This document shows, piece after piece, positions 14,921-63,001 of a stretch of 64,000 bases of DNA. The DNA comes from Flavisolibacter longurius (lineage in GTDB: Bacteria > Bacteroidota > Bacteroidia > Chitinophagales > Chitinophagaceae). Below the pieces are notes generated by a model. It was not told the DNA's origin, did no database searches, and worked only from the letters and a program-made list of their open reading frames with translations. The position numbers and the translations under genes were made by a program. Location of the stretch: contig JACJGO010000007.1 in the NCBI GenBank assembly GCA_014163555.1, positions 124,001 to 188,000 of the forward strand. Direction: 5' to 3'. Position 1 is the stretch's first letter. Every line of letters starts with the position of its first letter.

Positions 14921-14934
14921 AGAAGGGATGGTGA

Positions 14935-14976
14935 GTGATGAATGATGAATGATGAATGATGAGTGATGAGTGATGA
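14935..14976. repeat. Six tandem copies of a 7-base unit
   Basis: Units GTGATGA, ATGATGA (three times), GTGATGA (twice), directly upstream of trmH. Only the first base of the unit varies. Such short repeats can change copy number by slippage. Confidence 0.8.
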
Positions 14977-15099
14977 GTGGTATGTTAGTAAATAGATTGC
15001 TTGAGGGGGGAGGGGAATGAGGGGAGGGCGGTGATGAAAAATGAGGGGAAAGATTTTGGAGGTTATATGGGAATGATCCTTACATTTGCAACCCCGTTT

Positions 15100-25080: not shown

Positions 25081-25111
25081 TAATTAGTTATTAAGTTATT
25101 TAGTTATTGGG
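25081..25111. repeat. Left AT-rich arm of four-helix-bundle cassette
   Basis: AT-rich arm containing TTATTAAGTTA (25088-25098). The complement TAACTTAATAA occurs in the right arm, and the same pair recurs at 62937-62996. Confidence 0.6.
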
Positions 25112-25496
25112 CAGGCCTTTGGCTTTTTAAGTCGTTTTGTCTTTGTAAGAATTGAATGTAACCATTCAGGAGTTTGATCGCAAAATCAACTTTAGAACGA
25201 CCAATTGTGAATTCACCTTCTGAAATAAAATTTTCTTCCTTCATCGTGATCATGTCATCAATTATTTCAAAAAGCGAGCCTCTTGAAATCCTGCAAAACT
25301 GAATGTTTTCCTGAAAATGATACCGGCCAAATCCTTCTGCTATGTTTCGTGTTGTACTCCTGGCTGCCCTGGAAATATTATCCTTTAGATCAAATTCCCT
25401 CGCCGGCAATTTAGAGACAGAAATCCGAACCCATTTCACCACCTCTCTACAGGCCTTCCAACATTCAAGCTGCTCAAAAGATGTAAACGAACTCAT
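25104..25496 (-). CDS. Four-helix-bundle protein (S23/IVP family)
   Basis: 130 residues. The family pattern is clear: SFEQLECWKACREVVKWV, then LKDNISRAARSTTRNIAEGFGR (about residues 37-58), and a long last helix. Relatives are encoded in 23S rRNA intervening sequences and as lone genes in Bacteroidota; one relative (bAvd) is the accessory protein of diversity-generating retroelements. No reverse transcriptase or rRNA is near. The gene sits between inverted AT-rich arms and between recF and osmC, which suggests a small mobile cassette. Function unknown. Confidence 0.9.
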   Translation of the reverse strand: MSSFTSFEQLECWKACREVVKWVRISVSKLPAREFDLKDNISRAARSTTRNIAEGFGRYHFQENIQFCRISRGSLFEIIDDMITMKEENFISEGEFTIGRSKVDFAIKLLNGYIQFLQRQNDLKSQRPAQ

Positions 25497-25502
25497 ATTT
25501 CC

Positions 25503-25540
25503 TATTAACTTAATAATTCAATAACCTAATAACTCCTCAA
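25503..25540. repeat. Right AT-rich arm of four-helix-bundle cassette
   Basis: Carries TAACTTAATAA at 25506-25516, the exact complement of the left arm word, followed by further TAATAACT-type words. Confidence 0.6.
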
Positions 25541-25954
25541 TCACCCCCACTCACCCCAATCCACCTTCACCTCTATATCCGGGTGGATGCTTTGGGCCAC
25601 GGGGCAGGTATTGCCTGTGTTTATCAGTACCTGTTTTGATTTTTCATCCAGAGAGCGAAGGGCTTCGGGAAAGTGAAAGAATAGGTTTATGCCACCCACC
25701 CGGCGAGGGTCTGCTTTCATGATCTTCTCCACTTCTATATTGACACCGTTGAGGTCAAATCCCATGGTCCGGGCCTTAATGCCCATCACGGTGATCATAC
25801 AGGTAGCCAACGATGTTGCCATCAGGTCGGTAGGAGAAAACCGTTCGCCCTTTCCGTTGTTATCAACAGGGGCGTCGGTTTCAAAATTGTTGCCGGAGCG
25901 CAGGTGGGTACAGGTTGTTCGCAGGTCGCCTTCATAAACCACGGTAGATGTCAT
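25541..25954 (-). CDS. OsmC/Ohr-family peroxide-detoxifying protein
   Basis: 137 residues from the ATG at 25954 (a longer frame from 25984 only adds a basic, unlikely extension). OsmC fold with the two redox cysteines in LATCMITVMG and NTCPVAQSIH. Such proteins reduce organic hydroperoxides with thiol partners. Cytosolic. Single gene, divergent from the outer-membrane protein at 26000 by only 45 bases. Confidence 0.9.
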   Translation of the reverse strand: MTSTVVYEGDLRTTCTHLRSGNNFETDAPVDNNGKGERFSPTDLMATSLATCMITVMGIKARTMGFDLNGVNIEVEKIMKADPRRVGGINLFFHFPEALRSLDEKSKQVLINTGNTCPVAQSIHPDIEVKVDWGEWG

Positions 25955-25999
25955 ACTTTTTTGCCTAAATTTACGTTTGAACAATATATCTCTATCTAC

Positions 26000-43756: not shown

Positions 43757-43796
43757 GTTCAATTAGCAATGAGCAATAAGCAATTGATAATTGCGG

Positions 43797-54303: not shown

Positions 54304-54524
54304 GGGAAGCGCCTAAATTAACGGGAAAAGAATAAGGGAATTGTTAAAGAGGATGTGTGTCTGAAGTTAGGGGTTTAGGGTTGGAATCCTGTTGTTTTAT
54401 ATTCCTGCTGCGATGGAAGATTATTGTAAATCGAACTGCAGATGTAAGATATATAGGAAGACTCATGTACAATCAAGATAACCCCAAACCCCAAACCCCA
54501 AATCCCAAACTCCTAACTCCCGCT

Positions 54525-59948: not shown

Positions 59949-59973
59949 AATTTCAAGTTCATTGCTCATAGTT

Positions 59974-60016
59974 AAAAGTTCAAAGTCAGAAAGGTTAGTT
60001 TCGGCTTTGAACTTTT
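59974..60016. terminator. Bidirectional terminator between ubiD and cupin
   Basis: AAAAGTTCAAAG (59974-59985) and its exact complement CTTTGAACTTTT (60005-60016) with a 19-base loop, between two convergent genes. The ends run into A- and T-rich tracts on both sides. Confidence 0.7.
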
Positions 60017-60033
60017 GACTTTATACTTCAGAC

Positions 60034-60357
60034 TTAAAACTTATAATCCTCTCTTTCCGGATGAAAAACATCCAGCAACTGGCAATCGGTGATGGCCCGT
60101 CCTCCATGAATTACATGCGGTGGAATTACCGCCACAATACCGGGCGTCAGTACCCGGGTTTCTCCATCAACAGTTAATTCAAATTCGCCACTGAGTACAT
60201 GGGCTACCTGCTCGTGCAGGTGTGAATGCATTGGCATGTTATGACCGGCTTCCACCGCCCAGTACATAAAGGTCATGGTAACGGTATGAATGGTGCGGCC
60301 GTGGTATCCTTTTATAATCTCTTTGGAAGGAAGTGTATCCGTTTCAATAAATGGCAT
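60034..60357 (-). CDS. Small cupin-domain protein
   Basis: 107 residues from the ATG at 60357. Cupin motif 1 in [23 protein letters not shown] (metal-binding His, His, Glu) and motif 2 in [13 protein letters not shown]. Such small cupins may act as isomerases, sensors or detoxification proteins. Substrate unknown. Confidence 0.85.
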
Positions 60358-61988: not shown

Positions 61989-62921
61989 ATGAAAAAATGT
62001 TTGTGGTTGACGGCCCTGGTACTCTGTGCCGGCCTGGTGGTAAACGGACAAAAACAAAAATCTTCCGCGAAAGCTTCGCAAAGCAATACCCTGTTGTGGC
62101 GTATCAGCGGCAAAGACCTGCAACGGCCTTCCTATCTTTTTGGTACCATGCACATGTTGTGTGCCGATGATATTGAACTAAGCGACAGCCTGCGGTCGGC
62201 CATCAAAACAGCCGACAATGTGTATCTCGAGCTGGACCTGGAAAACCTGTTTGAAATGATGGGTGCCATGCAGCAAATGGGCATGCGCAACGATACCACA
62301 CTAGCCGATCTGCTGACGAAAGAAGAATACAGCCGCGTCAAAAAACATTTTGAAGAAAAAGGTTCAATGCTTCCTTTTGCTATGCTGGAGAAATACAAGC
62401 CCCTGCTGACAGCCTCCATGCTGGCGGAGCAACAGGTGAGTTCCTGTGATCATGTGATTTCCATGGAGCAACTGATCATGAAGGAAGCCAAACGGAGTCG
62501 GGTTGACATCAAAGGGCTGGAAACGATGAATTTTCAATTGGGCATTTTTGATAAGATCCCTTACCAGCTACAAGCAAAGCAATTGCACAAAATGATTGTG
62601 CAATCGGCCGACACTAAAAACGACAGCAGCATGAAAATGCTCACCGATGCTTACCGCAAACAACAACTGGAAAAGCTGGAAGAAATTACCATGCAGGAAG
62701 ACATGGGCATTCAAAATTTTACCGACCTGCTCCTGTACAGCCGCAACATTGCCTGGGCTGATAAACTGCAAAATCTCATGAAGGATAAAGCCCTGGTGGT
62801 AGCTGTCGGCGCCGGTCATTTACCCGGGAAAAAAGGTGTGATCAACCTGCTGCGCCTGAAAGGCTATAAAGTGGAGCCTGTAAAAAACGAGATGATACGG
62901 AAGATGGTGAAAGAAATATAG
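61989..62921 (+). CDS. TraB/GumN-family exported protein
   Basis: 310 residues with signal peptide (MKKCLWLTALVLCAGLVVNGQ). The family's two conserved Gly-His motifs are present: YLFGTMHM at about residue 52 and VAVGAGHLPGKKG at about 274. It resembles TIKI-type metallopeptidases and may cleave or modify peptides in the periplasm. Convergent with ndk across a hairpin region. Confidence 0.88.
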   Translation: MKKCLWLTALVLCAGLVVNGQKQKSSAKASQSNTLLWRISGKDLQRPSYLFGTMHMLCADDIELSDSLRSAIKTADNVYLELDLENLFEMMGAMQQMGMRNDTTLADLLTKEEYSRVKKHFEEKGSMLPFAMLEKYKPLLTASMLAEQQVSSCDHVISMEQLIMKEAKRSRVDIKGLETMNFQLGIFDKIPYQLQAKQLHKMIVQSADTKNDSSMKMLTDAYRKQQLEKLEEITMQEDMGIQNFTDLLLYSRNIAWADKLQNLMKDKALVVAVGAGHLPGKKGVINLLRLKGYKVEPVKNEMIRKMVKEI

Positions 62922-63001
62922 TTATTGGTTATTGAGTTATTAAGTTATTCAACATATTGCTGTCATTAATAACCCAATAACCCAATAACTTAATAACTGT
63001 T
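62917..63001. repeat. Inverted AT-rich arms without cargo
   Basis: TTATTAAGTTA (62937-62947) and TAACTTAATAA (62986-62996), with the longer arms TTATTGAGTTATTAAGTTA and TAACCCAATAACTTAATAA, separated by about 38 bases. Same word pair as the arms around the four-helix-bundle gene. Also serves as the spacer between two convergent genes and could terminate both. Confidence 0.65.

Follow-up and report, generated by a model that had tools for sequence, protein, structure and literature searches.

S23 four-helix-bundle genes between inverted repeat arrays: a probable general design of small mobile element in many bacterial groups

Proteins of the S23 (23S_rRNA_IVP) four-helix-bundle family are widespread, have two solved structures and no assigned function, and have been linked to the DGR protein Avd. 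Among the described systems closest to the locus examined here are the intervening sequences (IVSs) of 23S rRNA, termed selfish elements, in which an S23-family ORF lies between complementary ends (PMC4990558). REPINs, in turn, are extragenic pairs of short inverted repeats that form hairpins and are tied to a RAYT gene associated with its own repeat type, often with one conserved gene and many gene-free copies (PMC3116915). Intergenic heptamer arrays near stop codons, preferentially of four units, are known from Xanthomonas (GGGAATC; two strains have 70 and 75 convergent pairs) and Nostoc (GGGGA(C/T)T), in a text that names neither S23 nor 'four helix' (PMC4692102). Titles and abstract openings of the open-licence PMC literature yielded no paper linking S23 genes to such arrays.

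The locus lies in a 64,000-nucleotide stretch of Flavisolibacter longurius DNA (the window), where an S23 gene is placed between an OsmC-like gene and recF, all three on the minus strand (Table 1). The encoded protein exceeds the curated cut-offs of PF05635 (33.8 bits) and TIGR02436 (24 bits) in profile searches, as expected from the original prediction of an S23/IVP gene bracketed by inverted arms, and PF05635 is the sole family that it matches in a Pfam scan; the Y1 transposase character of RAYT proteins is not found in it. The window contains no rRNA gene (an Rfam search gives two tRNAs only), so the S23 element is not inside one. Both arms are short degenerate tandem arrays of the unit GTTATTNN, i.e., GTTATT plus two variable bases, and both are oriented inward. 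Spacers of 7 bp each separate the upstream arm from the stop codon of the OsmC-like gene and from the start codon of S23; the downstream arm adjoins the start region of recF (a period-8 array is called at 25081-25108), in line with the original placement of this filled copy at the recF edge. In the arm-pair score, the left flank is compared with the reverse complement of the right flank, with permuted partners as control and 28 as threshold. The window gene scores 31 from its domain ends and 25 from its ORF ends, the latter because its stop codon (25104-25106) falls inside the downstream arm. Between the arms there is the S23 ORF alone and no encoded recombinase; it is therefore plausible that the element would need help in trans, as had been proposed. 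The window genome has four PF01797 (Y1) matches and one distant PF00078 (RVT_1) match, the latter on contig C20 and the window on C55, so that the adjacent reverse transcriptase typical of DGR/Avd is not found at this locus.

Table 1. Genes, arms and gene-free arrays of the window (positions from the first letter of the window)
Feature	Position	Strand	Details
S23 / 23S_rRNA_IVP four-helix-bundle gene	25104..25496	-	130 aa; PF05635 74 bits, TIGR02436 65.8 bits
OsmC-like gene	25541-25984	-	Ohr/OsmC models, all under their cut-offs
recF		-	TIGR00611, 295.5 bits
Upstream arm of S23	25504..25533	-	inward reading GTTATTAG GTTATTGA ATTATTAA GTTAAT; 8-bp units
Downstream arm of S23	25087..25110	+	inward reading GTTATTAA GTTATTTA GTTATTGG
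Gene-free hairpin, left arm, GTTATT-type unit of the S23 arms	62921..62949	+	inverted partner score 34
Gene-free hairpin, right arm, GTTATT-type unit	62968..62997	-	18-base loop; few bases from end of convergent gene
Second gene-free hairpin, 7-bp AGTTCAAA-type units	59970..60046	.	array 60005-60046, partner from 59970; partner score 27, loop 19
Third hairpin-like pair, 7-bp GGGGTTT units	54366..54520	.	array 54480-54520, partner from 54366; score 24, loop 97
Single 7-bp array, GCAATNN	43760..43793	.	type of the L005 arms of this genome, likeness by eye

The word TTATTAAGTTA is present at 25088-25098 (+) and, as its reverse complement, at 25506-25516, and the same inverted pair is found again at 62937-62947 and 62986-62996 around a 38-base spacer, both as the original prediction had placed them. 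The second pair lies in a gene-free hairpin whose left arm starts at the final base of the upstream gene's TAG stop (62919-62921). Allowing at most one mismatch, TTATTAAGTTA has seven sites in the window against 1.02 expected (at most four in 100 shuffles) and 15 matches in the rest of the genome against seven for the reversed control pattern; contig C43 carries another hairpin of the GTTATT-type unit, besides some single sites. We also note a 51-bp array of GATGAATG/GATGAGTG 7-mers at 14929-14979 of the window, with no inverted partner above background within 1.2 kb.

In scans covering 0.1-0.46 Mb per genome (1.66 Mb in all), noncoding arrays of period 6-9 occur at 0.3-1.0 per kb of noncoding DNA, and block-shuffled sequence of the window genome gives none in the same scan. 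An inverted partner within 220 bp accompanies 44 of 134 noncoding arrays, a count of arrays and not of hairpins that includes a few arms of S23 loci. Like REPINs, these are inverted doublets that can form hairpins and are scattered between genes. At G000:C21:382045-382203, gene-free hairpins are nested (ACGTGAA outer, GTTCACAA inner), as if one element had landed in another. A different palindromic intergenic repeat, with CCCCGCGCTAAAGC / GGCTAAAGCC cores and without tandem arrays, is found at several sites of G000:C21 (L135-L154) and G009:C22 (L225-L244) among the matches listed.

The window assembly has 11 PF05635 matches, 10 of them above the cut-off. A fixed repeat shared by all of them was considered and rejected, because TTATTAAGTTA is missing around the remaining ten. 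The units found at the other S23 genes include AGCTGTG, GTTCACAA, GGCAATG, ACGTGAA, ATGAAAAT and GGATATTG, with inverted arrays on both sides in most cases; of the expectation that the arms recur around other four-helix genes, the architecture thus survives and the word does not. Seven of the 11 matches score at least 28, three more have weaker arms by eye, and L011, which is under the Pfam cut-off, has no array in its flanks by eye. Each inverted array consists of 6-9 bp units, mostly 7-mers, and the unit is common to both arms of an element and varies among elements.

The same relation between the two flanks holds beyond this genome, at loci that are mostly top-scoring family matches and not random picks. 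Own arms average 34.3 in the genus set (37 loci), against 18.5 for permuted partners (largest of 10,000: 24.5), and 29.1 against 18.3 (largest 22.3) in a phylum sample of 30 loci. For the combined Bacteroidota (107 of 109 loci), the means are 33.1 and 18.1 (maximum 20.8 of 10,000), with 74 of the 107 loci scoring at least 28 and 33 falling short. The family itself is present in 90 of 118 sampled genomes of the phylum. Among control ORFs of the window genome, with flanks taken from the ORF ends, four of 380 score at least 28, with S23 genes in the first two places; three of the 380 are S23 genes, and two of the 377 others reach the threshold. Across four genomes (1.66 Mb), likewise scored from ORF ends, 14 of 1366 ORFs reach 28, comprising five of the seven S23 ORFs present, one PDDEXK_3 gene (assigned by matching place), two Y1-transposase-like genes and one DDE-transposase-like gene (by reading), and five others. 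Because transposase-like ORFs are among the 14, the scan also catches genes resembling those of known mobile elements.

For other phyla, the best 80 of 542 relatives from named genomes were taken and 76 loci examined, of which 56 score at least 28 (mean 36.6 against 18.0 permuted). These divide into 17 of 22 in Bacteroidota, with the Kapabacteria locus L300 counted there, 8 of 11 in other FCB groups, and 31 of 43 elsewhere, including Acidobacteria, Chloroflexi, several proteobacterial classes, Bacillota, Patescibacteria and more. Gammaproteobacterial genomes contain S23 in 61 of 369 cases, and 24 of 28 examined loci score at least 28, two of the loci (L391 and L392) being identical to L334 and L324 of the 76-locus sample. 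On these flank comparisons, an S23 gene between inverted arrays is an established architecture in many phyla.

The composition of the arms was analysed for the 200 loci with sufficiently high scores (111 of 132, 64 of 76 and 25 of 28). The best period is 7 in 280 of 363 arms and 8 in 72, and the median aligned arm has 35-39 bases, or about five units. Read inward, the arms have more G than C at 191 of the 200 loci, and the same polarity is found in hairpin arrays (37 vs 4), compared with 167 to 134 in control flanks.

Whether arms and gene travel together can be read from copies at different sites. Three within-genome paralogue pairs with 81-83% protein identity (L121/L119 in G005, the cleanest, and L258/L252 and L256/L251 in G006) are alike only between the outer arm ends, so that, as in a transposon, terminal inverted repeats bound the unit. 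These copies are old, about 80% alike, and no recent copy pair was found within the genomes compared. Among 111 elements, arm likeness grows with protein identity (Mantel rho 0.205; best of 500 permutations 0.105), including at non-orthologous sites, where arm similarity is 0.55 for pairs with at least 70% protein identity (n = 16) vs 0.18 below 30%.

Site occupancy changes among relatives. At the recF site, where empty sites in relatives were to be sought, S23 is lacking in G015 and G005, which have the OsmC-like gene, recF and array-like remnants, whereas the S23 gene of G009 and of G006 belongs to another subfamily and has 6-bp arms. Over 400 kb compared between G000 and G009, each genome has two S23 genes, and none of the four has a counterpart at the corresponding site of the other genome; among the sites listed, out of 33 flagged, three of the S23-less sites carry gene-free hairpins of a different unit and one does not. 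Absence at a site may be loss, since L008, which is missing in G009, is present at the same site in G006. Cyanobacterial plasmid elements are inserted between a stop codon and the next start codon. Calothrix carries one such S23 element, with heptamer arms, at a site that is empty in Tolypothrix, Aulosira and N. carneum, whose stop and start codons are 3 bp apart there (TAG gag ATG); a second is carried by Nostoc C052 and CCNP1411 but not by C057 p057_A or UHCC 0926. The filled junctions differ from the empty sites by some bases. By eye, there is no clear target-site duplication in the paralogue pairs (about 80% alike), at the G000-G009 sites or at the plasmid junctions.

Two further plasmid loci belong to the same neighbourhood. 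L385 (Nostoc sp. ATCC 53789 plasmid pNsp_c) has the left junction of the L382 S23 element, with arms that enclose a non-S23 interior, and is an S23-less form at the site of that element. L390 (Nostoc sp. C057 plasmid p057_H) has a different insert between AATTCAAA arrays near that site; a 3-bp duplication, TCA, is possible there but ambiguous.

That arm, S23 gene and arm form one mobile unit is well supported by these comparisons of sequence. The first reading of the window, in which a minimal mobile element occurs both filled and empty, was right in outline: paralogue pairs, filled and empty plasmid sites and gene-free hairpins all agree with the two forms, whereas the single repeat family that it assumed gives way to a different unit at most of the other S23 genes.

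The Xanthomonas heptamer allows a sharper comparison. The S23 protein XCC0516 of X. campestris is that of structure 2gsc, and the expectation that it would have GGGAATC arms was fixed after PMC4692102 was known, without sight of the XCC0516 DNA and before its relatives were examined. The three closest relatives found (86-88% identical) have GGGAAT-type arms, at a site that reads as the accB-accC junction. Among 30 loci, 15 have GGGAAT-type, 13 GGGATT-type and one GTGAAT-type arms; the thirtieth, L454, reaches 28 by a best alignment that is not an array pairing. Both arms therefore carry the same unit variant at related loci. At an apparent accB-accC junction in G522 (L413), the S23 gene is frameshifted and the GGGAATC arms are kept.

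Dispersed arrays were also compared with the S23 arms of their own genomes. For 124 such arrays in four genomes, the probability that the own genome's arms give the best match is 0.40 vs 0.25 expected, with arrays that are not independent of one another and with almost no contribution from G005 (own-genome margin 0.406 vs 0.405). Among the 18 genomes of the genus, G002 alone is without both PF05635 and PF13366 (PDDEXK_3) matches, and in this one genome a single noncoding array is found in 98.9 kb vs 9.2 expected, with two more falling in ORFs. In a small test of co-switching of dispersed arrays with arms (GGGAATC vs GGGATTC), 100 kb yielded only two arrays, each with the core that the arms did not have, an outcome that counts against coupling as far as it goes. 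With moderate confidence, dispersed array units resemble the arms of the S23 genes in their own genome; as with RAYT genes, the candidate cognate gene is flanked by its own repeat type.

S23 genes are not the only ones in this setting. PDDEXK_3 (GxxExxY) genes of the genus (L270-L299, 30 loci) are often flanked by inverted arrays with units of 8-9 bp, with an own mean of 41.3 against 19.9 permuted (largest 27.1) over 29 loci, two of which are near-copies of each other in G003. At about 50.2-54.4 kb of G009:C22 (start of L225), two genes resembling Y1 (RAYT-type) transposases have matching inverted flanks, GCCGTTGTTGGTGTTGAGGCG; from their sequence, these appear to be a REP/RAYT-like system beside the array elements.

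The account that we favour, and consider probable, is that arms and gene form a single element of hairpin-armed mobile DNA resembling REPINs and RAYTs, with S23 as the cognate protein. Such an element would consist of an inward array of about five 7-8 bp units, the S23 gene and the same array inverted. The S23 protein would bind the unit array, perhaps with one protomer per unit, on the G-rich strand of ends that are single-stranded or hairpinned. Both S23 structures, 2gsc and 2rld, have five chains as deposited, which suggests one arm unit per protomer. Together with host replication or repair enzymes, S23 would have the hairpin-armed DNA copied into intergenic gaps, for the most part directly behind stop codons, and gene-free hairpins would be its non-autonomous copies, in the relation of REPINs to RAYT genes. 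The arms would be kept alike by copying at the DNA level (slippage, hairpin-templated repair or joint replacement), and for this reason both would change unit together. The role of S23 in driving this mobility is one that we infer. A wider reading, put forward tentatively, would be a class of hairpin mobile DNA that extends across the bacteria and has S23 proteins as its cognate partners. Each end would hold about five units of 7-8 bp, matched one to one by the protomers of an S23 pentamer, and drifting specificity would give each lineage its own unit; many unexplained heptamer repeats, those of Xanthomonas and Nostoc included, would then be gene-free copies, and PDDEXK_3 genes would mark a sister class with 8-9 bp units.

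The arms could instead be moved by another agent, i.e., a Y1/HUH RAYT, a reverse transcriptase or host replication alone, with S23 as an arm-binding regulator or a passenger; S23 may be a passenger, as it has no known enzyme activity and no observed transposition. The element without a recombinase, the four PF01797 matches and one PF00078 match of the genome, and the PDDEXK_3 genes that share the inverted-array setting (19 of 29 loci scoring at least 28) are all in keeping with such a mover. It is nevertheless rather unlikely in our judgement, given that the arm unit tracks S23 protein identity, that the genome lacking both S23 and PDDEXK_3 (G002) is array-poor, and that the two Y1-like genes, identified by reading, have flanks of another kind that are not tandem arrays.

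An element acting at the RNA level, in the manner of the 23S rRNA IVSs, would have arms that pair in the transcript, where RNase III would excise the S23 message from operon transcripts and RNA pairing would keep the arms alike. The core design is indeed that of the rRNA IVSs (S23 ORF, complementary ends, RNase III; PMC4990558), and S23 elements are often found between neighbour genes on the same strand. Arms maintained by RNA pairing should favour G.U over A.C mismatches on the sense strand, and such a preference is not seen: the 200 loci have 304 of the G.U and 309 of the A.C type, and the named set alone has 62 and 96 (p 0.008, opposite to RNA pairing). Because there is no net bias, RNA pairing is not evident as the keeper of arm likeness and was set back to a rival. 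In addition, the arms are low-complexity arrays of a kind found also singly or as short hairpins away from S23, and we regard the RNA-level reading as improbable. Ordinary intergenic simple repeats, regulatory or quadruplex-forming, in or beside which S23 genes merely land, are more improbable still. Arrays do exist without S23, those of Xanthomonas and Nostoc are described as quadruplex-forming (PMC4692102), and unit number varies, with a right arm that is longer by eye in Nostoc C052 than in CCNP1411. Chance landing does not explain, however, why left and right arms match each other and differ among elements, why paralogue likeness stops at the outer arm ends, why the arms change along with the gene at the recF site, or why such flanks are rare at control ORFs.

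In sum, an S23 gene between mirror-image repeat runs is probably the general design of a tiny mobile element in many bacterial groups. If S23 is the partner of the hairpins, one idea would tie together the intervening sequences of rRNA, dispersed repeats of heptamers and octamers, and many genes annotated 'four helix bundle', and pairs of unit and protein would become testable. The outcome would be a class of mobile element with a small non-enzymatic protein and with ends that shift in sequence yet stay inverted copies of each other.

Compared with REPINs and RAYTs, which the S23 elements resemble in their extragenic inverted pairs, their gene and their gene-free copies, the protein is different, since the RAYT protein is a tyrosine (Y1) transposase (PMC3116915) and S23 is a four-helix bundle without known catalysis; the arms differ as well, being degenerate tandem arrays with a unit that varies by element. 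The IVSs share the S23-family ORF between complementary ends but lie in helices of 23S rRNA and are excised by RNase III (PMC4990558), whereas the elements described here are located between protein genes, with arm likeness that bears no sign of RNA pairing. The Xanthomonas and Nostoc heptamers have the same intergenic position near stop codons, and the Xanthomonas unit GGGAATC is the arm unit of genes close to XCC0516; they have been described as quadruplex-forming repeats (PMC4692102). The BrickBuilt MITE of Porphyromonas gingivalis is likewise an intergenic Bacteroidota element with inverted ends and tandem repeats, but its tandem unit is 23 bp long and lies within the MITE, and its abstract names no S23 gene (PMC4596501). 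Finally, TAACTGA heptamers form intergenic arrays of unexplained origin in Beggiatoaceae, cyanobacteria and Bacteroidetes; these differ in being mostly direct and upstream of start codons, and that paper has neither S23 nor 'four helix' among its words (PMC4679880).
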